Origin: a virus
Length of the DNA: 23,729 nt
IMG/VR virus record: IMGVR_UViG_3300025013_000119
Span: 1 to 23,729 of that record
Direction: 5' to 3' (one strand)
In this document: piece by piece, positions 406 to 20,651 of the stretch
Numbering within the stretch: the first letter of the stretch is position 1
Layout: every line of letters begins with the position of its first letter
Notes under the pieces: model-generated
The model's input: only the letters and a program-made list of their open reading frames with translations
Told to the model about the DNA's origin: nothing
Database searches by the model: none
Made by a program: the position numbers and the translations under genes

Positions 406-876
406 TTAGCGGCCGGTGGTGCCGAACAGCTCGTTATGCTCGGGCCTGGAAAAGTCCTTCTTCCCGGTGACGGACTTGGACTTCTCCTCCCCTTCCTTGC
501 CGTGCTTTTCCCGGTCCGACTGGTCCTTGCCGGTGAAGACGGCATGGGTCGGGAACTTCTCCCTGGCGCGGGTCTCGTACTTGTCGCGCTGGGCCTTGAG
601 GCGGGCAATCGGGACGGTCTTGAGGAAATCCTCCTCCTCCTTCTTCGCCTTCTCGTCGTCCGTAATCTCGCCGATCAGCGCCGCGAACTTGACCATGTCG
701 GCGATCAAATCATCACGATAGGCTTTGCCATCGTCGGCGAGCGGTTTCAGCTCGTTAATCGTGGCGTCCTTGCCGGCCAGCATCGTCTTGATTTCGTTCA
801 GGAGCGTCTCCTCGCTGATGTCCACCGCCAGCGACTTACCGGAAAGGCTCCCGATTCCTGCAATCAAAATTTTCAT
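406..876 (-). CDS. Nested scaffold protein, internal in-frame start within the protease gene
   Basis: Inside the protease gene, codon 219 is an ATG (876) preceded by GGGAGGA seven bases upstream, a far stronger ribosome site than an internal codon would have by chance. Translation from here gives a 156-aa protein beginning MKILIAGIGSLSGKSL and consisting of the helical, charged scaffold part only. This is the arrangement known from lambda C/Nu3 and related phages, where a separate scaffold is made from the 3' half of the protease gene so that scaffold is in excess over protease. The inference rests on the ribosome site, the reading frame and the domain boundary; no expression evidence is available. 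Confidence 0.6.
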   Translation of the reverse strand: MKILIAGIGSLSGKSLAVDISEETLLNEIKTMLAGKDATINELKPLADDGKAYRDDLIADMVKFAALIGEITDDEKAKKEEEDFLKTVPIARLKAQRDKYETRAREKFPTHAVFTGKDQSDREKHGKEGEEKSKSVTGKKDFSRPEHNELFGTTGR

Positions 877-1530
877 GTCTGTTCCTCCCTCCATTTCTCT
901 GTTTTTATCGAAAGCCTTTTGGGCCGTGGCGCCCGGTTGCGCGCCGAGCCAAACGAGTGAGCCTTCAAGCGCCTCCCCGGGGGAGACGTACTGGTAGTAC
1001 TTAGTGGGGCCTGTGGGGGTTTCCCTGACCGCCCGGCAGTCTGCAGCAGCAAACCCGATTGAGCAGTGGTCACAGACGCCGCCGTCGATCTGCTGGGTCA
1101 GTTCCTCGTTGCTGGGGGTCTTCACCATGTAGGCCCACGACCACAGCACTTTGCAGCGGTCAACGCCGTCCGGCATGCGGGGATCGATCCCCGTGAGAGC
1201 CTTGAACTGCTCGCAGCTCATCTCCTCGGTCGATGCGTCAAACCATTTGCCTCTAGGCAGGTCCCGCCTGTTGTGCCCGGCGAGCAGCGACTTGCCCGGC
1301 ATGGTGGCGGCGAACTGGTCCAGCATCTCGTTGGGGAAACACTCGTTGTCCCGGTCGATGCAGTTGTGCGCCATCAGGAACTTGCGCACGAAGACCTGCT
1401 CGGCGGTCAAGGGGGCAAGGGCATAGTTGTTGATCATCGCCAGCATCCCGGCGGTGACCTCGGCCCCCATCCCGCTCCCCTTGAAGCCGATGACCTTTGC
1501 ACCGATCTTCTTAGCCGGCATCTTCGGCAC
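406..1530 (-). CDS. Prohead protease with C-terminal scaffold domain
   Basis: A 374-aa protein with two parts. Residues 40-205 look like an HK97-type (U35/S78) prohead protease: a GHNRR segment supplies the likely catalytic His86, CSIGF supplies Ser157, and EGSLVWLGAQPGA (189-201) matches the usual motif near the end of the protease fold. Residues about 235-374 are charged, helical and Lys/Glu-rich, as in internal scaffolds that are cut away during capsid maturation. The start is GTG at 1530 with AAGGA five bases upstream; an ATG at 1521 is the alternative. It overlaps the upstream 129-aa gene by 10-20 bases. Established for the family: the protease trims scaffold and capsid after prohead assembly. 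The cleavage sites are not predictable here. Confidence 0.8.
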   Translation of the reverse strand: MPKMPAKKIGAKVIGFKGSGMGAEVTAGMLAMINNYALAPLTAEQVFVRKFLMAHNCIDRDNECFPNEMLDQFAATMPGKSLLAGHNRRDLPRGKWFDASTEEMSCEQFKALTGIDPRMPDGVDRCKVLWSWAYMVKTPSNEELTQQIDGGVCDHCSIGFAAADCRAVRETPTGPTKYYQYVSPGEALEGSLVWLGAQPGATAQKAFDKNREMEGGTDMKILIAGIGSLSGKSLAVDISEETLLNEIKTMLAGKDATINELKPLADDGKAYRDDLIADMVKFAALIGEITDDEKAKKEEEDFLKTVPIARLKAQRDKYETRAREKFPTHAVFTGKDQSDREKHGKEGEEKSKSVTGKKDFSRPEHNELFGTTGR

Positions 1531-1900
1531 CTATTTCCTTGCCGTCCCTGAACCAGACCTTGACGGCTTTGCTGTCGCGCATGGTCACGACGTGAGTGGC
1601 GCCGGCGGTGTCAAAGCCCTGTTTCGGCTCGGTCCTGGGCAGCGCGGGGTCGGTCTTTTCCGCATGGTCCGCGGCGGGCGTTTCTGCCGGAGGCTTTGCG
1701 CCCTTGGTCGCGGAAGCCTTGCCGCCCTTGGCCACAACTTTTGCCTGCTTCACCTGGGGTTTCTCCTCAGGCTTCTTTACCCCGAGGTCGGCGGCTTCCG
1801 GCCTTTTCTGCAGGGAAGCGAGCTCGGCCTGTTCCTCGGCACTGAGCCCCGGTTTGTCTTTCAGCTCTTCCAGCCGCAGGGCTTCTTCGGCATTCAACAT
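1511..1900 (-). CDS. Hypothetical late phage protein (129 aa)
   Basis: Not recognised. The first 30 residues are acidic and helical (MLNAEEALRLEELKDKPGL, then SAEEQAELASLQKR). Residues about 40-90 are a low-complexity Lys/Ala/Pro linker. The last 30 (THVVTMRDSKAVKVWFRDGK) look like a small beta-hairpin domain. The ATG at 1900 has an AAAGGAG site eight bases upstream. The gene sits between the portal fusion and the protease, overlapping the latter, so it is probably a minor head or assembly protein. Such N-helix, linker, C-hairpin layouts occur in adaptor or decoration proteins, but no specific role is assigned. Confidence 0.65.
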   Translation of the reverse strand: MLNAEEALRLEELKDKPGLSAEEQAELASLQKRPEAADLGVKKPEEKPQVKQAKVVAKGGKASATKGAKPPAETPAADHAEKTDPALPRTEPKQGFDTAGATHVVTMRDSKAVKVWFRDGKEIGAEDAG

Positions 1901-1924: not shown

Positions 1925-2023
1925 TCAGGCGGTCTTTTTCCCCTCGACACCTGAGCCCTGGAAGTCTTTGCATCCCGGCTTTACCGATGTGGCGGTGATT
2001 TTCTTGACCTGTCCCTGTTTCAT
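1925..2023 (-). CDS. 32-residue late microprotein
   Basis: A short gene with an ATG at 2023 and a GAGAGG ribosome site six bases upstream. It encodes 32 residues, basic and glycine-containing (MKQGQVKKITATSVKPGC, then KDFQGSGVEGKKTA). It is the first gene after the candidate late promoter at 2050-2097 and lies 24 bases before the next start codon, in the same direction. Small basic proteins of this kind are common between portal and protease genes in phages. The function is unknown. It was accepted because of its position, ribosome site and spacing. Confidence 0.5.
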   Translation of the reverse strand: MKQGQVKKITATSVKPGCKDFQGSGVEGKKTA

Positions 2024-2049: not shown

Positions 2050-2097
2050 GCATTACCATGGATCAAGGACATGTTCTGGCAGATCAGGACACTATTT
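2050..2097 (-). promoter_or_regulatory. Candidate activator-dependent late promoter A (capsid block)
   Basis: A 35-bp element (2063-2097) repeats at 6952-6986 with 32 of 35 identical bases. It contains an imperfect dyad, TGTTC-N10-GGACA on the plus strand (2072-2091). Seventeen bases from the dyad, in the minus direction, is an extended -10, TGG-TAATGC (hexamer 2055-2050). There is no consensus -35. The predicted start is near 2043, 20 bases before the 32-aa gene, and the dyad would be centred about -38.5. It directly abuts the portal-fusion stop codon. Mor/C-family activators bind dyads next to -35 in promoters of this type, and such a gene lies at 7502-7768. The binding itself is inference. 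Confidence 0.55.
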
Positions 2098-4265
2098 CAC
2101 TGTCTGAGCGCCTGGCAGATAGGGCAGGCATCCGGCGCCGGTGTGAATGCCATGACCAGCTTGCCGTCGATCTCTTTCACAGTGTTCGCACAGCGGCAGT
2201 GCGGGTGGGTGTCCCGGCCGGCGATGATGGTTTTACTGACATCGACGCCGCGTTCGCCCCATTCGTCTTTCTTGGCGGTCTCGGCGCTGATAGCCATCTC
2301 CGTCCGTGCCAGGCGCTCCCAGTTGCTGTTCTGGTCCCCGAAAAGCTTTTTCAGCCGGGCGGACACTGAGAGTGGGTTGCTCCCGGCCAGCATGTGCGCC
2401 TCCATCTCCGGGATGATCTTGTTCACGATGGCCTTGGTGGCGTTGTCCTTGAGGAGATCGAAACCGTTTTTCACCAGCTCCTCGTAAACGCCCCTGTTGT
2501 TCAGGATGTCCAGGATAGGACGCTCCGCTCCGACCATCTCGGCCGCCTGGATCAGCCCCAGCGAGTAGCTCTCGCCGTAGTAGGACCGGAGAGGGGAGTT
2601 CGGGTCGTCGGGGACGTACTGCCCGATGTAGCCCTTCAGATCCTCCATGATCGCGGCGCGCTGTTCCGAGGAAAGGGTAAAGGTCTCGGGCAGGAGGTCC
2701 TCGGGCGCCTTGGCCGCGCGCTGCCCCATGGCGAGGGCGATGCTGGCGTTGTCCAGTTTGCAGACCGTCATCACCCGCTGGTGCATCTCCGACCAGGTCG
2801 CCTTTACCTCATCCTCATAGCGGGTCTCCACCGCATCCAGTTGCGGCCAAGGCACGGGGCGTTCCAGTTCCTTGACCCCGGTGACCGATTTGCAGCCGCA
2901 GGCGCAGCCGTGGGCGTGCTTCGCTGCCTTTTTAGGCGGGGTGGGCGCTGCCGGGACGTTGATGGCCGCCGTGGCGTTCATCTGGTCCGCCTGTGCGTTC
3001 AGGAAACGGGCCTGAGCTTGGGCCACCAGGTCGCGCAGGTTCGGCGTCTCGAAGATGATCCCCCAGTCGCCGGGCCGGTCCAGGCTGGTCGTGACGCTTT
3101 TCCAGCTGCGGCCGCGCAGGCGCAGGAAGGCGGAGAAGAGCCGGATGAACTCCGGCAACATGGCGAGCTGGCGGATCTTGGCGTCCTGCAGGGCGGCCTC
3201 TATCTGCAGAGTCGCGGGGCGCTCCCCGGTAGACCATTGGAAGCCGAACAGCATAGGGGGGAGACCGGTCTTGCTCACGATCTGCTCCAGCACATGGCGC
3301 GCGGGGATATCCATGGCGAGGATCTGGTTGTCCGCGCCGATGACGGTGATCGTCATGTCGGCGTCGGCTGAGACCGCAGTGACAAAATCCGAGCTGTGCC
3401 CCTTGCGCTTGGCGCGGAAGGCGTTGCTCACATCGGTCTGGATCTTCTGCCGGCGCGCCTCCAGGTCGACGCCGCCCAGGTCCCGCTTGTTGGTCTTGTA
3501 CTTGACGAACAGCGACGGGTCGCCAAAACGCTCCCACGAGTTCTTGGTGGTGTTCTGGATGGTCATCAGGATCTGCGCGCAAAACTCCATGGAGCGCATC
3601 AGCGAGACGCCATAGGGGTCCGTATTCTCGTTGTTGATGGAGAAATAGAGCTTGTTCGACGGGTCCAGCTTCACTTCCCAGCCGCTGTCGACGTAGACGG
3701 CCTGGTTGTAGGTGGCGCTCAGCAGGCGCTCGGGGAGGGTCCCGGGGGATTGGTAGCGTGTGATGTTGGAGGGGAGGGCGGTGTTCACGTAGCGGTACCA
3801 CGGCTCCGTGCGGCCGTCGGCGGTGCGGCGGAAGAAGATCTGCTTGGAATCCGGCACGCGCAGCTCCGCGATGTCCTTCATGTCCTTGGTGGCGACGAAC
3901 TCGGGGAGGGAAAAGCCCTGCTCGAACTTTTCGTTGCTGCAGTTCTCCAGGAAAGCGTGGATCCCTTTCTGGTGATCGTTCACCGGGACGTGCAGGGAGA
4001 AGTCTTCCAGCTCTTTCACCAGGGCGGGGTTGTCGCCGATGATCTTTATGGTGCCGTCCAGCGAGATCAGGCGCCGGATCGCCGAATCTATCACCGGGAT
4101 ACCCTCGCGCATCGCCTCGTAGAAGTCGCCGGAGACCTTGCGCAGGTGGTAATCCTGGAACCAAGCGGTAAGCGGCCCCTGGGGGGAAGTCGGCGTGTAC
4201 TGCGGGCGGGTGGCGATATCCGCCGCCCCTTTTGCGCGCCCTATCTCAAAACCGAAAAGCTTCAT
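2097..4265 (-). CDS. Portal protein fused to a Mu F-like head morphogenesis domain
   Basis: A 722-aa protein. Residues 1-430 resemble the Mu gp29/DUF935 portal family, which forms the dodecameric DNA channel at one capsid vertex. Useful landmarks are FYEAMREGIPVIDSAIRRL (48-66), the PYGVSLMRSMEF region (217-228) and TGLPPMLFG (333-341). Residues about 475-720 match the Mu gp30/SPP1 gp7 (Phage_Mu_F) minor head protein family, with ARTEMAISAE (653-662) and the HPHCRC motif (687-692). Between them lies a Pro/Ala/Lys linker and a Cys cluster, GCACGC (453-458). A second pair, CPIC, is at 714-717. In Mu these are two genes, so the single chain is notable. The gene starts 20 bases after the terminase stop. 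Confidence 0.85.
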   Translation of the reverse strand: MKLFGFEIGRAKGAADIATRPQYTPTSPQGPLTAWFQDYHLRKVSGDFYEAMREGIPVIDSAIRRLISLDGTIKIIGDNPALVKELEDFSLHVPVNDHQKGIHAFLENCSNEKFEQGFSLPEFVATKDMKDIAELRVPDSKQIFFRRTADGRTEPWYRYVNTALPSNITRYQSPGTLPERLLSATYNQAVYVDSGWEVKLDPSNKLYFSINNENTDPYGVSLMRSMEFCAQILMTIQNTTKNSWERFGDPSLFVKYKTNKRDLGGVDLEARRQKIQTDVSNAFRAKRKGHSSDFVTAVSADADMTITVIGADNQILAMDIPARHVLEQIVSKTGLPPMLFGFQWSTGERPATLQIEAALQDAKIRQLAMLPEFIRLFSAFLRLRGRSWKSVTTSLDRPGDWGIIFETPNLRDLVAQAQARFLNAQADQMNATAAINVPAAPTPPKKAAKHAHGCACGCKSVTGVKELERPVPWPQLDAVETRYEDEVKATWSEMHQRVMTVCKLDNASIALAMGQRAAKAPEDLLPETFTLSSEQRAAIMEDLKGYIGQYVPDDPNSPLRSYYGESYSLGLIQAAEMVGAERPILDILNNRGVYEELVKNGFDLLKDNATKAIVNKIIPEMEAHMLAGSNPLSVSARLKKLFGDQNSNWERLARTEMAISAETAKKDEWGERGVDVSKTIIAGRDTHPHCRCANTVKEIDGKLVMAFTPAPDACPICQALRQ

Positions 4266-4284
4266 GTGTATCTCTCCTTTTGAT

Positions 4285-6060
4285 CTACCCGCAGGCGAAC
4301 AGGTCTTCTTCCTCGTGCCCCGGGAGCAGACAGCGCAGAGTCAGCACCCGATCGGCATCGATCACGTGGTCGTCCAGGTCCTTGAAGATCCGGTGACGCT
4401 GCCCCTGCCGGGAGGTGTGGTTCGGGTACATCAGCATGATGTCCGGATCGTAGGGGTACTCCAGCTCCTGGCGCTGCATCTTTGCGGTCAGGAAGTCGGT
4501 GGAAAGTTCCTTGGCCGTGAGCTTGACCGGCTTTTGGGTGTGCTTGTCGATGATCACCTCGCCGTCCTCGTTCACGGCGTCATAGGTGCTGCCGAACTGG
4601 AAGCCGGTCAAACGGTCCTCATAGCGCTTGGCCGCGTACTGCTCCTGCCCCTGGAGGATATGCACGACGGCGGACCCGGCGTTGCCGAAGTCGAGCCCGA
4701 GCCCCATGGTGTTTTTGCCGCTGTCGAAGACATCGTCCAGGGCGTCGATAGCATCGGCCTGCTGGTCGTAGCTCACCCCCTTCAACTGCACCCGGGCGAT
4801 GAGGCGATGCACCTTGCCGATCACCACCTTGACAAAGAGCTCGGTAGGGTCCTGGCTAAAGCCGAGGTCGCCGCCGAGGAAGGTAAGCCCGGGGATGCCG
4901 GAGAAGAAAGCCTTGATCTCCCGGGAGATGTCGAAGTCGCCCTTCGGCACGCGCCGGTCCTCAAGCGTGACCGGTTCCGGCTTGCCGAGCTGGCCGTCCA
5001 CCATGGGGGCGCGCAGCTCGTAGCCGTAGAGGGAGATTTCGTTCGCCGAGTCGTCTACAAAGATTTTCAGGCAGCGGTACTCCCGGATGTCCTTCAGGAG
5101 CTGTTCGAATTTCTTCCAGGGGAAGACGCTGTTCTCCGGATCGCCCCATTCACCAAGGACCGCCTGCCGGTACCCGGAGCTGTCCTCGCCGTGGTACTGC
5201 TCGATGTAGAAGCGACGGCGGTCCGGTGTCCAGTAGGGCGCCGGCTGCAGGGTCTTGGCCCACTTGTAGAGGGTGAAGTCGGTGGGGGAGCCTTTTACCA
5301 CCTCGGTTTCGGTCGATGCCTTGATTTTCCCCTCGGCGCGGGCGCAGAGCTTGAAGTGCATGCAGGAGCGGTCGCCGTCGGGCATGCCGTAGAGCTTGAA
5401 GACCGCGCCCGGCTCGCCACGGCCCCAGAACTCGGTGAAGATCTTGTCGTTCTTCGCCTTTGGCGTTTCGTCGAAGATGCAGAAGGTCTTGGCGTGCACG
5501 CCACGCAGCTGCGTGCCGTCGTGACCGCAGGTTCTGATGTCCAGCTCGAAGCGGTTGGAGAACTTCAGGAAGTGGTGCGGCTGTTTGCGGTGCTCGATCA
5601 GACACTTCTTGAGCGAAGGGCTGTTTGACAGTTGGTCGGTGATGCCGTCCACGATCTCCAGCGTGTGCACCGACTGCGGCGCCGTCATGAGGCCGCTGCC
5701 GTTCGGATTGGTGAAGATCTCGAACAGCATGTAGGCGAGGATCTCGCGGGTTTTCCCCGTTTCGAAGCCGCACTGGTGCAGGGTGTTCCCCTGGTCGCGC
5801 AGGGAGGCCTCCTGATACTCCCAGAAGGTGTAAGGGCTCTTGCCGTCCTCCGGCGAACGCAGGAAAGCCGCAGACCAGAGCACCCGATCCGAACAGATGA
5901 TCGCCATCTGGAACTCTTCCAGGGAAGAGAAGGGGGGAGGAAATTCCCCCCTTGCTATCTGGTGCCAGGTCCAATCAAGAAACTGGAGCGTAGAGTCGAA
6001 GATCTCGTGGGGGACGATGATCTGTTTGCCGAGGTCGGCAATATGATCGAGAGGCTGCAC
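4285..6060 (-). CDS. Terminase large subunit
   Basis: The 591-aa DNA-packaging motor. The ATPase domain has Walker A GFETGKT (98-104) and Walker B FCIFDE (193-198). The RNase H-like nuclease has GGDLGFS (Asp398), GLDFGNAG (Asp457) and a downstream Asp-rich stretch (561-570), the three acidic positions expected. It pumps DNA into the prohead through the portal and cuts the concatemer. The start is GTG at 6060, sharing one base with the TAG stop of the small-subunit gene, with GGAAGGGA just upstream. This arrangement implies coupled translation. Length and motif order are normal for Mu gp28-type and related large terminases. The packaging mode (headful or cos) cannot be read from this sequence. 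Confidence 0.93.
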   Translation of the reverse strand: MQPLDHIADLGKQIIVPHEIFDSTLQFLDWTWHQIARGEFPPPFSSLEEFQMAIICSDRVLWSAAFLRSPEDGKSPYTFWEYQEASLRDQGNTLHQCGFETGKTREILAYMLFEIFTNPNGSGLMTAPQSVHTLEIVDGITDQLSNSPSLKKCLIEHRKQPHHFLKFSNRFELDIRTCGHDGTQLRGVHAKTFCIFDETPKAKNDKIFTEFWGRGEPGAVFKLYGMPDGDRSCMHFKLCARAEGKIKASTETEVVKGSPTDFTLYKWAKTLQPAPYWTPDRRRFYIEQYHGEDSSGYRQAVLGEWGDPENSVFPWKKFEQLLKDIREYRCLKIFVDDSANEISLYGYELRAPMVDGQLGKPEPVTLEDRRVPKGDFDISREIKAFFSGIPGLTFLGGDLGFSQDPTELFVKVVIGKVHRLIARVQLKGVSYDQQADAIDALDDVFDSGKNTMGLGLDFGNAGSAVVHILQGQEQYAAKRYEDRLTGFQFGSTYDAVNEDGEVIIDKHTQKPVKLTAKELSTDFLTAKMQRQELEYPYDPDIMLMYPNHTSRQGQRHRIFKDLDDHVIDADRVLTLRCLLPGHEEEDLFACG

Positions 6061-6893
6061 TACTTCCCTTCCTTCTTTTCTTTGGCCAGGGCGAGCGCCG
6101 CGCCGGCGCCGCGGAAGATGTCCGCGATGGTCTCGACCGCCTTGTCGTCGCTCTTCTTGCGCTCGACGGCCGCCGGGGTGATCATAAATTCAGGCATGGT
6201 GAGGCCGAACGCCTTGATCAGGTTGGAGAGGGGGAGGAGGGCGGGGTTCGGTTTCAGCTCGTAGCCGATCACCTTGCCGTCCTTGTCCATCTTTTCGCTC
6301 TTCATGTAGGGGCCGAACTCCAGGATAGCCCCCTGCAGGTCGCCGATGACCTGCAGCGTCTCCGCCATGTGCAGCGTCGTGATGTCCTTCAGGTCGTCCA
6401 GGGAGCCGTCCTTGAGCGCCTTCTCGATTGCCTTGCAGGCTTTGACCAGGTGCTCCTTGTCGCTGCAGTCCCCCCCTGGCTCCACCGCCCCCTCATCGAT
6501 GAGCGAACAGGGGAACTTGGGACAAGTCGACTTGCACGGCTTGCCCAGTCCAAGGATGCGCGACTCGGCGTACATGCCGTGGCGCCAGTTGTTGCGGGAG
6601 CTGGAGGCCTTGCCCTCCGCGGTCTTCGGGCCGGTTGAGAGTTGGGCATTGTTGCGGCGCGCGGCGAGGGCGGCCTCGGAAAGGGTATAGGAGCGTTTCT
6701 TGACCTTGAGCCGTTCGAGCACGGGGTCGATCTCGGGTTCCTCATCCGCCGGTTCCTGATCGCCGATGAGAGTCCGCTCCAACTTGAGAAGCTTGTTCAG
6801 GTCGTCGACCTTGCCGGTCTCCCCACCCTCGACCTTTTTGAAGAGCACGGCGATCTGATCGCGGGTAATACGGAGTTTTTCGGTGATATTCAT
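6060..6893 (-). CDS. Terminase small subunit (P27-like C-terminus)
   Basis: A 277-aa protein directly upstream of and overlapping the large terminase, the usual place of the DNA-recognition subunit. Residues 208-243 (VIGYELKPNPALLPLSNLIK, then AFGLTMPEFMITPAAV) match the end of P27-type small terminases. Residues 79-111 hold a TGPKTAEGKASSSRNNWRHG motif seen in many phage proteins. Four cysteines (120, 124, 129, 143) could bind a metal, which is unusual for small terminases. The start ATG at 6893 has its ribosome site GAGGG inside the 3' arm of the hairpin at 6896-6939, so translation is probably controlled by RNA structure. The function is inferred from context plus the C-terminal motif. Confidence 0.75.
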   Translation of the reverse strand: MNITEKLRITRDQIAVLFKKVEGGETGKVDDLNKLLKLERTLIGDQEPADEEPEIDPVLERLKVKKRSYTLSEAALAARRNNAQLSTGPKTAEGKASSSRNNWRHGMYAESRILGLGKPCKSTCPKFPCSLIDEGAVEPGGDCSDKEHLVKACKAIEKALKDGSLDDLKDITTLHMAETLQVIGDLQGAILEFGPYMKSEKMDKDGKVIGYELKPNPALLPLSNLIKAFGLTMPEFMITPAAVERKKSDDKAVETIADIFRGAGAALALAKEKKEGK

Positions 6894-6895
6894 GT

Positions 6896-6939
6896 AAAAA
6901 GGCCCTCACGGCGGATAGATTTCCACGCCATGAGGGCCT
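6896..6939 (-). terminator. Terminator-like hairpin covering the ribosome site of the small terminase gene
   Basis: On the minus strand, 6939-6926 pairs with 6913-6900 over 14 bp (one G-U pair) around a 12-base loop. The stem ends in a run of five Ts (6900-6896), three bases before the ATG at 6893. It would stop transcription arriving from the Mor-like gene region. The same 3' arm carries the only ribosome site (GAGGG, 6907-6903). The candidate promoter B would start RNA near 6932, inside the 5' arm, deleting the lower half of the stem and freeing the site. Confidence 0.7.
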
Positions 6940-6986
6940 ACTTATCAGATTTCAAGGTCTTGTTCGGGCAGATCAGGACACTATTT
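6939..6986 (-). promoter_or_regulatory. Candidate activator-dependent late promoter B (terminase block)
   Basis: Second copy of the 35-bp element of 2063-2097 (here 6952-6986). The dyad TGTTC-N10-GGACA is at 6961-6980. At the same 17-base distance is an extended -10, TGA-TAAGTA (hexamer 6944-6939). The element sits between the stop of the Cys-rich gene and the small terminase gene. The predicted start is near 6932. Two copies with identical internal spacing, each between a stop codon and a late block, argue for a shared promoter rather than chance similarity. Confidence 0.6.
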
Positions 6987-6988
6987 TG

Positions 6989-7486
6989 TTATGCCTTCAT
7001 GGCTTCCAGTATTTTCCTGTCCTGGGAAATAGCGCAGGATTCATGAACGCAGTCCCCCGCGAAAGGGTAATCATCTGGCCGGTCAAACTCAATCTTTGCC
7101 CACCTATCGACCGGGCCGTTTTTGTCTTGGAGCATGGGATGGCAGCACAGAGGACACCAATCATATTCTGTCAACCGATCTTCGTAGGTGTCCCCCTGTT
7201 TTCGCACCGATTCAAAAGTACAGTCCTTCGGAACTTGCTTGACAGCTCCGGCGTAATTTCCGGCTGTAACTGTGATGGTTTTTTTCTCCCAGATTTCCAG
7301 CAAAAAGGGCATAAGCATCGGCTGGGTGTTTTCGCACTCGGCAAGCCGCATTATGTTGGGATGGAATGGGCCATGTTTCACTTGTTTCCCGTACTGACCA
7401 CACATGTGGATGCTTTTGATAGACATTGTGTCTTGCTCCGCCTCTGAAGGTGAAAGGTACTGGCACTCCGGGTTGCAAAATTTCAT
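6989..7486 (-). CDS. Cysteine-rich hypothetical protein (165 aa)
   Basis: Not recognised. The protein has nine or so cysteines in clusters: FCNPECQYLSP (3-13), MCGQYGK (28-34), AEC (49-51), CTF (89-91), and WCPLCCHPM (110-118), plus several histidines, suggesting one or two metal-binding sites. The middle (60-85) is hydrophobic beta-type sequence. GGAGG lies eight bases before the ATG at 7486. The gene follows the Mor-like activator by 15 bases and ends against promoter B, so it is the last gene before the late block. It may be a middle-phase protein. No enzyme motif is visible. Confidence 0.7.
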   Translation of the reverse strand: MKFCNPECQYLSPSEAEQDTMSIKSIHMCGQYGKQVKHGPFHPNIMRLAECENTQPMLMPFLLEIWEKKTITVTAGNYAGAVKQVPKDCTFESVRKQGDTYEDRLTEYDWCPLCCHPMLQDKNGPVDRWAKIEFDRPDDYPFAGDCVHESCAISQDRKILEAMKA

Positions 7487-7501
7487 CTGTCTTACCTCCG
7501 T

Positions 7502-7768
7502 TTATGTTTGAACTATCCGTCTGACCTGTTTTACCTTCAGCCGATACTTGATCGCCAATTCTTGATGATTACGCCCGGTGAACTCAATCTTGAGCCGGCG
7601 ATTACGCTCGGCCCGGTAGAGATGCTGGAAGTCAGGGAATGTGATCCGGTAACCACCGACCACCTCGACCATAACCTGGATGATCTGCGGCGCCATGTTG
7701 CCGAACTCACCATGCAGACGACTGAAAAGTTCTGTTACTACCTCTGTGTGCTCGGCCCTGGTCATCAT
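7502..7768 (-). CDS. Mor/C-family transcription activator
   Basis: An 88-aa protein matching the Mor activator family of Mu-like phages: an N-terminal dimerisation helix region, the GGYRITFP beta-strand turn (38-45), then IEFTGRNHQELAIKYRLKVK followed by QVRRIVQ, a helix-turn-helix (61-87). Mor and C bind as dimers to dyads beside -35 and recruit RNA polymerase to middle and late promoters that lack a proper -35. Two such sites are seen at 2050-2097 and 6939-6986. The first ATG (7768) shares ATGA with the integrase stop. The ATG at 7765 is better spaced from GGAGGG and may be the true start. It is short compared with Mu Mor (about 129 aa) because the N-terminus is reduced. Confidence 0.85.
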   Translation of the reverse strand: MMTRAEHTEVVTELFSRLHGEFGNMAPQIIQVMVEVVGGYRITFPDFQHLYRAERNRRLKIEFTGRNHQELAIKYRLKVKQVRRIVQT

Positions 7769-8754
7769 CCCTCCTCGATTTCATTGAAGCGCTTGTCCGG
7801 GATAGCGGTCTTGCGCAAGGTCCTCTCTGATATTGCAATGTAGCCCAGCGTGGTCTTCGGATCCTCGTGTCCCAGGAGAGCCATCACCTCGAAGACTCCA
7901 ACGGACTGGATGCCGTGTCCGCACCGCGGGCACTTGTCATGCCCGCTGTCATAAAGGTCGGTGGCGAACGTCGACCGCATCTTGTGCAGGAAAACCTCCG
8001 CATCGTCGATGCCGATCGTCCGGGAGTACTTCTTCAGGATGTTCTGATAGCTCTTGTCACTGAGCCGGTCGCTCCGCCCAGGGCGCCCCCCCTTCTTGAG
8101 CCGGATGAACACCGCAGCTGTGTCCGTCTCTATACCCTTCCTTACCAGCAACCATTCGCGTAGCGCCCTGGAGGGATTGGTGCGCATGGTTACCGTGCGA
8201 TCCTTCCCCCCCTTGCCGCCGATGATCTGTAGCCGGATATAACCACCGGTATCGATGCAGTGATTCATGTCCAGGTTGACCAGCTCCGAGACGCGGGGCC
8301 CGGCTGCATAGAGCGTCTTCAAAATAGCCAGGTCGCGCAACCCTTGGGTGGTGTCCCGATCCGGCGCCCTGAAGAGGAGGCGCAGCTCCTCCGTGCTGAA
8401 CTTCTGAGGAAGGGTTTCCTGGACCTTAGGTGAGGGGATACCCTTGGTAGGATCATCCTTCCGGTACCCGGCATACTTCATCCACTGGAAGAAACTCTTG
8501 ACTGCGGAGAGCTTGCTCGCCCTGGACCGGTTGGAGAGGTTCCCCATGTCATAGAAAAGCGCCTTCTGCCACTCCGTGACGTCCTCCCGGGAGGTCAGGA
8601 TAGGGTTACCCCCTTTGTCTGCCTCCAGTGCCCACCGGAAGAAGCCACGGGCCACCAGGCAGTACTGCTCCACTCCCCGTTGGCGCTGGCCCTTCTGGAT
8701 GAGCATGTGCTCCATCCATTCCGTGATAACCTGCTCAAAACTCACCTCCTTCAT
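7765..8754 (-). CDS. Tyrosine recombinase (full length, likely phage integrase)
   Basis: A 329-aa site-specific recombinase. An N-terminal SAM-like core-binding domain (about 5-100) is followed by the catalytic domain with Arg154 (AAGPRVSEL), Lys in GGKGGKDR (181/184), H257-x2-R260, His296 (LLGHEDPKTT) and nucleophile Tyr305. Between Arg260 and His296 there are 36 residues, against 23 in the two other recombinases of this window; the extra piece contains CPRCGH (275-280), a possible metal knuckle. The last codons overlap the Mor-like gene (ATGA). It reads leftward between the putative origin and the activator. It is the best candidate for prophage integration or excision, though no att core could be identified. 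Confidence 0.9.
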   Translation of the reverse strand: MKEVSFEQVITEWMEHMLIQKGQRQRGVEQYCLVARGFFRWALEADKGGNPILTSREDVTEWQKALFYDMGNLSNRSRASKLSAVKSFFQWMKYAGYRKDDPTKGIPSPKVQETLPQKFSTEELRLLFRAPDRDTTQGLRDLAILKTLYAAGPRVSELVNLDMNHCIDTGGYIRLQIIGGKGGKDRTVTMRTNPSRALREWLLVRKGIETDTAAVFIRLKKGGRPGRSDRLSDKSYQNILKKYSRTIGIDDAEVFLHKMRSTFATDLYDSGHDKCPRCGHGIQSVGVFEVMALLGHEDPKTTLGYIAISERTLRKTAIPDKRFNEIEEG

Positions 8755-12753: not shown

Positions 12754-14099
<1,346 letters not shown>

Positions 14100-19732: not shown

Positions 19733-20323
19733 TTACCCCAGTGCCTCGACCGCGTCGACCATCTCGTCCCAGGTTGCTTCAGTGTAAATCCCGGTCGACG
19801 CCAGCGAGGCGTGTCCGGCTATCTTCTGGATCGTGGTGAGAGCCACTCCGCGCTCCTGCATCCGCTTGAAGCACGAATGACGCAGGCTGTGCGCCGAATA
19901 GAGCGCCACCACCTCGCCGCCCTTGGTAGTCGTCAATCCTGCCCGGACCAGCCACCCTTCGACCAGGTCCTGCAGGCTCCTTTTGCTAAGCCTCCCGCCG
20001 TTGCGGGAAACGAAGAGGGGCGCGTCGTCCCGGATGCTCTCCTTCCAGGACAACTTGTCCCGGAACAATCCCTTGAGCGTCCGCTGCAGGTCCGCGCTCA
20101 CCGGGATGAAGCGCGCCTTGCCCCGTTTGGCGATCTCCGGCCGGACGTGCAGCTTCTCCTTGCCCCGCAGGTCCCCCACGTTCAGCCCCACCAGCTCCGC
20201 GGCGCGCAGGCCGGTACCGAGCAGCAGCTCGATGATCACCCGGTCCCGCTCCGCCTTCTTGCCCTTGATCTCCTTCACCGTCCGGAGCAGGGCCTTCTCC
20301 TCTTTGTCCGTCAGATACTTCAT
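19733..20323 (-). CDS. Minimal tyrosine recombinase (catalytic domain only)
   Basis: The start is the ATG at 20323 with GGAGG five bases upstream; the frame open above it crosses a terminator and is unlike protein. The 196 residues hold the entire active site: Arg40 (GTGLRAAEL), Lys66/69 (AKRGKARFIPV), H145-x2-R148 (SAHSLRHS), His171 (GHASLAST) and Tyr180. The N-terminal core-binding domain of ordinary integrases is absent. The length matches FimB/FimE-type recombinases, which invert short DNA segments, but a partner supplying DNA binding is also possible. No invertible segment was found nearby. It starts after the terminator at 20356-20411 and therefore may have its own promoter. Confidence 0.85.
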   Translation of the reverse strand: MKYLTDKEEKALLRTVKEIKGKKAERDRVIIELLLGTGLRAAELVGLNVGDLRGKEKLHVRPEIAKRGKARFIPVSADLQRTLKGLFRDKLSWKESIRDDAPLFVSRNGGRLSKRSLQDLVEGWLVRAGLTTTKGGEVVALYSAHSLRHSCFKRMQERGVALTTIQKIAGHASLASTGIYTEATWDEMVDAVEALG

Positions 20324-20355
20324 GATCGCCTCCATCATGTTTGAGCCCCGTTTAG

Positions 20356-20411
20356 AAAAATCCCCCTGGCCGCCGGCGGAGCGTTCCGGCAGGATGCCTC
20401 CCTGCCAGGGG
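20356..20411 (-). terminator. Rho-independent terminator of the early leftward operon
   Basis: On the minus strand CCCCTGGC (20411... to 20404 region) pairs perfectly with GCCAGGGG (20370-20363) over eight bases, with an inner CCGG-containing structure and a run of five Ts (20360-20356) shortly after. It lies 12 bases past the stop of the 75-aa membrane protein and before the minimal recombinase. Confidence 0.7.
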
Positions 20412-20423
20412 AAACTGGTGTGA

Positions 20424-20651
20424 CTATCGATACCACCTGGACACAATCTCCTGCCTGGTCTTGGCGGCCGGGTCATGTTGCGCGCCGTAGGCATCCTTGG
20501 GCATCTCCAAGCGCCCCTCGCGCAGACCCAGCTGGAGGCCGAGCACGAAGAAAACCAGGCCGAAAACGGAGAGGAGAAACACCTTGGTGAAAAGCTGTAG
20601 GTCCGCCTCTTCCTGCCCGTCATCATAGCGATTCGCCTTAAATGAATTCAC
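20424..20651 (-). CDS. Small single-pass membrane protein (75 aa)
   Basis: Starts at GTG 20651, overlapping the previous stop as GTGA, with AAGGGGG and GAAGG upstream. One transmembrane helix (LFTKVFLLSVFGLVFFVLGL, about 20-42) is followed by a charged tail (GLREGRLEMPKDAYGAQHDP, then AAKTRQEIVSRWYR). The N-terminus is short and polar. The function is unknown; small membrane proteins in phage early operons are sometimes superinfection-exclusion or host-takeover factors, which is only a suggestion. It is the last gene before the terminator. Confidence 0.7.
   Translation of the reverse strand: MNSFKANRYDDGQEEADLQLFTKVFLLSVFGLVFFVLGLQLGLREGRLEMPKDAYGAQHDPAAKTRQEIVSRWYR

Follow-up and report, generated by a model that had tools for sequence, protein, structure and literature searches.

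The window (the whole stretch of DNA analysed, a virus contig of 23.7 kb) carries its late genes on the minus strand, so that promoters and transcripts point towards lower coordinates. Read in this direction, the order is integrase, a gene for a Mor-like protein (mor), a 165-aa ORF, element 1, the presumed small terminase gene (terS), the large terminase gene (terL), the portal gene, element 2, a 32-aa ORF and the head genes. The integrase, mor and 165-aa ORF genes, all on the minus strand, occupy 6989–8754, and the Mor/C-family activator gene among them (88 aa) lies at 7502–7768. The presumed terS (6060–6893, minus strand) precedes terL and falls in phrog_26872, of unknown function; terL (4285–6060, minus strand) matches phrog_2 (E=9e-7), and the portal gene, which has a C-terminal minor-head domain (2097–4265, minus strand), matches phrog_30703 (E=2e-48) and phrog_115. 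The first gene past element 2 is the 32-aa ORF (1925–2023, minus strand), and a similar ORF with the pattern K-G..K-I...DF-GSG-VEG is found there in many relatives; it also resembles the opening stretch of certain longer ORFs in relatives, in which this stretch is fused to a C-terminal part like the one in the 129-aa ORF of the window. The 129-aa and 374-aa ORFs (406–1900, minus strand) are taken as head-block genes from synteny in relatives, the latter belonging to phrog_16951, of unknown function. The window holds three integrase-like genes of the tyrosine recombinase type (7765–8754, 12933–14099 and 19733–20626), the first of which was the one tested against profiles, and a GA-repeat run at about 12870–12930, reading RERERERE in one frame, lies between a primase-like gene and the second of these.

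The sequence-only reading had proposed a 35-bp repeat at 2063–2097 and 6952–6986, and the repeat is real. The copies are identical at 32 of 35 bases, and an all-against-all comparison of 35-mers on the same strand and at least 40 bases apart finds no other pair in the window with at least 29 of 35 matches; the pattern TGTYC-N10-GRACA occurs in the window at exactly these two places (chance mean 0.13). Both copies adjoin stop codons, as had been stated: copy 1 starts three bases past the stop of the 165-aa ORF, and copy 2 shares its first base with the end of the portal stop codon. The Mor-family gene is indeed upstream of copy 1, at a distance of 516 bp. The full repeat is longer than the 35-bp pair, comprising an ungapped motif of 44 columns that ends in TGnTA and lies on the same strand (minus) both times, before terS as element 1 (candidate late promoter Pter, 6943–6986) and before the head block as element 2 (candidate late promoter Phead, 2054–2097).

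A TerL search returned 12 viral contigs with 57–100% identity, and a TerL alignment yielded 80 loci from viruses and 28 from bacterial genomes, many of the latter labelled Geobacter, Desulfuromonadales, Desulfobacterales, Desulfobulbaceae, Thermodesulfovibrionales or Nitrospirae; the known hosts of the group are mostly Desulfobacterota and Nitrospirota. The element occurs twice per phage in about 30 related phages (TerL down to 45–50% identity). In close relatives it was located by eye and with a weight matrix, ungapped, before terS and, contig permitting, past the portal gene, and the shared order is int-mor-(cargo)-element 1-terS-terL-portal-(cargo)-element 2-head genes. When the regions upstream and downstream of terL were compared without a matrix, a direct 40-bp match of at least 30/40 was found in 30/64 loci, as against 2/64 once the downstream region had been inverted (Wilcoxon p=1.5e-8). 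The matched pairs sit at the two homologous places, and their sequence is lineage-specific and ungapped when aligned on TGnTA. Comparison establishes, at the level of sequence, both the element and its two positions. Named phages offered little: no relative was found by DNA in INPHARED, a TerL search gave distant records only (best 32%, Microcystis phage MACPNOA1), and the element is absent from the start region of those records. In three more distant phages (L116, L088 and L086), paired sites built on a TTCGGACGA or ATCGGACGA core lie upstream of terL with a start codon close behind them, perhaps giving leaderless transcripts.

Each lineage has its own version of the site: GTGTCCT..AAGACC in the window, GTGACA..TGTCC in L013, L038, L040 and L102, ATGCAATGATCTGCCAG in L058 and L064, GCAGTGATCTGCCAGATCACCGC in L065 and L110, and GTTTCATCATCTGCC in L046. 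The two copies agree at 25/29 positions within a genome versus 14.8/29 between genomes, and the best match of a copy is its own second copy in 19 of 24 cases. The suggestion that the dyad represents a new specificity is borne out insofar as the site is lineage-specific, but it is one of many specificities in the group.

The dyad itself had to be redefined. It had been read as TGTTC-N10-GGACA, centred at column 16.5, a candidate that we rejected; its right arm (GAACA) is not kept in relatives and there is no excess symmetry at that centre. We aligned 54 sites on TGnTA, using neither the dyad nor the downstream bases and leaving aside four outlier lineages (L059, L076, L099 and L057) and one duplicate (L050). 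Mirrored positions are complementary in 61.6% of cases at column 19.0, compared with 11–30% at all other centres tested and 29% at 16.5. The conserved dyad is GTCCT-N13-AGGAC, 23 bp long and centred at column 19. The centre scan and the shuffling of right halves place the predicted activator site at 6957–6979 in element 1 (GTCCT-GATCTGCCCGAAC-AAGAC, minus strand) and at 2068–2090 in element 2 (GTCCT-GATCTGCCAGAAC-ATGTC, minus strand). Complementarity amounts to 446/715; exchanging right halves between loci at random lowers it to 351 ± 9.5, and the highest value in 2000 such shuffles is 385. The half-sites therefore co-vary, as expected of a symmetric dimer. In L057 (about 6285–6340), the element-1 dyad GTGACATGATCTGCCAGATCGTGTCAC itself makes an almost perfect hairpin with TTTTTT behind it, and the predicted activator site therefore resembles a terminator there.

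The elements had also been described as having an extended -10 without a -35, and this agrees with what we find. TGATA in element 1 (6943–6947, minus strand) and TGGTA in element 2 (2054–2058, minus strand) stand in the same register across lineages, although the perfect conservation of TGnTA is partly built in by its use as the alignment anchor. The -10 is weak past TGnTA, and no -35-like hexamer is present 17 bases before it; columns 20–25 are unlike TTGACA, and the dyad, at about -48 to -26, occupies the place of a -35. Downstream, position 17 counted from TGnTA is an A (A17) in 28/33 copies of element 1 and 21/25 copies of element 2; this base played no part in the alignment, and in element 2 it is the sole strongly conserved one beyond TGnTA. 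We take A17 as the predicted transcription start, at 6931 for Pter and 2042 for Phead. The hexamer GCCCTC was considered as a piece of the promoter itself and ruled out, being missing from element 2. Repeats beside terminase genes can be of another kind, since phages bear repeated cos/pac or recombination sites, and copy 1 does adjoin the terminase genes. That the elements are such DNA sites, or RNA processing signals, rather than promoters is nevertheless very improbable: their spacing to TGnTA and the conserved A is constant, they are always on the same strand and always ahead of a gene block, even where cargo has been inserted, and C-A pairs interrupt the pairing of the RNA in many copies while the DNA half-sites are still recognisable.

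The proposed regulator belongs to the Mor/C family by profile and by predicted fold. It matches PF08765 (E=1.5e-12; 47.9 bits, above the cut-off of 24.9), phrog_532 (late transcriptional activator) and a sequence profile of 1rr7 (E=2e-8). The top seven PDB matches of its AF2 model are all Mor or C (1rr7, 9l0x and 9l0y; probability 0.99–1.00, TM 0.43–0.57), with a pTM of only 0.50 for the model and E of about 0.003–0.05 for the matches. The C-terminal helix-turn-helix fold of Mor/C is present, and its recognition helix is predicted at residues 79–87. The Mor gene went undetected in several contigs, which are mostly fragments.

Divergence of the sites tracks that of this protein. With TerL distance controlled, site distance follows Mor distance (partial Mantel r=0.59, p=0.0002, n=28 loci), while its relation to TerL distance given Mor is weak (r=0.21, p=0.015, 28 loci); sites within a lineage are related, so these permutation p-values are optimistic. 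Among all pairings of variable Mor columns with half-site positions, residue 78 with column 9 (mirror 29) ranks first (z=10.2), and this residue (Lys78 in the window) begins the recognition helix; residue 36, outside the helix, also scores high, and relatedness therefore contributes to these scores. Lys or Arg at 78 pairs with T or C at column 9, and Ser, His or Cys mostly with A. In L074, TerL is near that of the window (73% over the part held), yet the protein has His78 and both half-sites have A. Inspection of the association table, as distinct from the scan, showed in addition that Arg84 accompanies C at column 10 in 22/22 loci and that His, Ser or Asn at 84 accompanies A/G there in 3/3 (L058, L065 and L110). 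Linkage between mor and element 1 does not by itself account for the co-variation, for element 2 co-varies as well; taken alone, this copy, which lies beyond terL from mor, still follows Mor (r=0.50, p=0.0006).

It could be argued that both elements are read by something else, either a regulator of the host or an alternative sigma factor, and that the adjacent Mor gene is incidental. Binding of the Mor-like protein to the dyads is a prediction, host factors are also able to bind dyads, and with mor close to element 1, linkage could yield some correlation. We regard this as quite improbable, because element 2 follows Mor and not TerL, because the best residue–base pair falls at the recognition helix, and because variation of the sites between phages would be needless for a shared host factor. 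The proposal that a Mor-like activator encoded by the phage itself controls two late promoters is, with the dyad re-centred and its other corrections, well supported by these comparisons.

A feature that the sequence-only reading did not contain is a hairpin laid over the first promoter, comprising both a terminator and a ribosome-binding site. A predicted intrinsic terminator at 6896–6938 (minus strand) has a 13-bp stem followed by a run of five T and overlaps Pter; a transcript of the integrase, mor and 165-aa ORF genes would enter it. Its 3' arm includes the predicted Shine-Dalgarno sequence of terS, GAGGG (6903–6907, minus strand; GGAGGG at the same place in relatives), nine bases before the terS ATG, which comes just past the T run. 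Folding gives a dG of -27.5 for the full hairpin versus -7.8 for RNA from the predicted start, which can form a partial stem only, at a distance from the T run. In 25/37 loci, element 1 is followed by a GC-rich hairpin and a run of T, and in 23 of them the 5' arm starts at -6 to -10; for these in-register cases, dG is about -3 to -12 from A17 versus -13 to -28 for the full hairpin. The arms vary together among relatives (GCCCTC/GAGGGC, GCCTTC/GGGAGGC). Past element 2, one of 27 copies has a hairpin, and this is unrelated, distant and weak. Comparison with Rfam gave no known RNA family. The promoter is present without the terminator in L038, L040, L102, L013 and L058; the overlap is therefore not essential, and the hairpin is best seen as an added safeguard, outside the activator switch.

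Terminators between operons are common, the hairpin is missing in some relatives and the start sites are predictions, so one could regard it as the ordinary end of the upstream operon, or as an attenuator that would fold in late RNA too and be relieved by an antiterminator, with no switching role. The model for the latter is lambda Q, which also acts at a late promoter near a terminator; here the terminator arm is upstream of the start, the second promoter has no terminator, and the protein is of the Mor type and not the Q type. We consider an ordinary terminator or attenuator unlikely, given that 23/25 of the hairpins have a 5' arm starting between -6 and -10, that A17 is kept at the same place in the hairpin-less element 2, and that RNA from A17 loses the 5' arm, with the change in dG described above.

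We favour a switching role for the hairpin and consider it likely that the whole explanation is correct, namely that both elements are activator-dependent late promoters, the first of them laid over an intrinsic terminator. A dimer of the Mor-like protein would bind the 23-bp dyad, stand in for the missing -35 contact and recruit host RNA polymerase to the weak extended -10, with transcription beginning at the A at about 6931 and 2042. Element 1 would drive terS-terL-portal, and element 2 the head block and probably also later structural genes. RNA arriving from the integrase-mor side would fold the full hairpin, end there and have its terS ribosome site hidden; RNA started at the promoter, without the 5' arm, would neither terminate nor hide that site. 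Read-through from the integrase-mor side would then meet two locks, one being termination and the other the masking of the ribosome site.

Mu is the obvious comparison. Pm with Mor and the Mu late promoters with C share with the present system the activator family (PF08765, the 1rr7/9l0x fold), the control of middle or late genes, a dyad in place of the -35 and a weak core promoter. The site sequence differs, and so does the geometry: the Mor dyad of Pm lies at -51 to -36, centred at -43.5, and an extended -10 is absent (PMC4287176), whereas here a 23-bp dyad is centred at about -37 and TGnTA is present. Mu runs a cascade of Mor and then C, in contrast to one 88-aa activator for two promoters here, and the overlap with a terminator sets the present system apart as well. 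The hairpin has a closer parallel in T4, where late promoters lie within ribosome-site hairpins (I-TevI, e and soc) that only the early, upstream-initiated RNA forms (PMC2988022). In the window and most hairpin-bearing relatives, likewise, the predicted start lies past the 5' arm and the ribosome site is in the 3' arm. The present hairpin differs in being an intrinsic terminator as well, its promoter would depend on a Mor-like protein, the gene is terS and the phages are temperate; in place of the T4 late promoter sequence and late factors, there are TGnTA with a dyad and a Mor-family activator. We found no description of late regulation or late promoters for this phage group in the open-licence literature searched, nor, in the open-licence papers searched, any on the 9l0x/9l0y structures.

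Further copies before tail and lysis genes had been anticipated, but only two copies were found in contigs of 40–45 kb. G001 and G002 (whole, 40 and 45 kb) have two each by matrix scan and G042 and G046 (31 and 42 kb) two each by pattern searches, and none in these four lies before tail or lysis genes by window-type matrix or pattern. The late regulon is thus most likely two transcripts, with no set of promoters ahead of the genes for tail and lysis, where promoters with a different sequence may nevertheless serve. In L011 the element occurs a third time, directly past mor (7777–7825), with a perfect 7-bp dyad, GTGTCCT/AGGACAC.

The group offers a natural library of about 25 Mor/C-family activator–operator pairs, with up to two copies of the site in each. 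It makes rules of recognition readable, one base going with residue 78 and its neighbour with residue 84, and these can be tested against the recent PDB structures of complexes of Mu C and Mor. On balance, we think it probable that the whole lineage uses a two-promoter late switch, in which activator and operators have co-evolved to many specificities and the first promoter, set inside a terminator, serves as a double lock in the prophage. Such a promoter within a terminator would be a compact means of silencing the packaging genes under read-through in the prophage.
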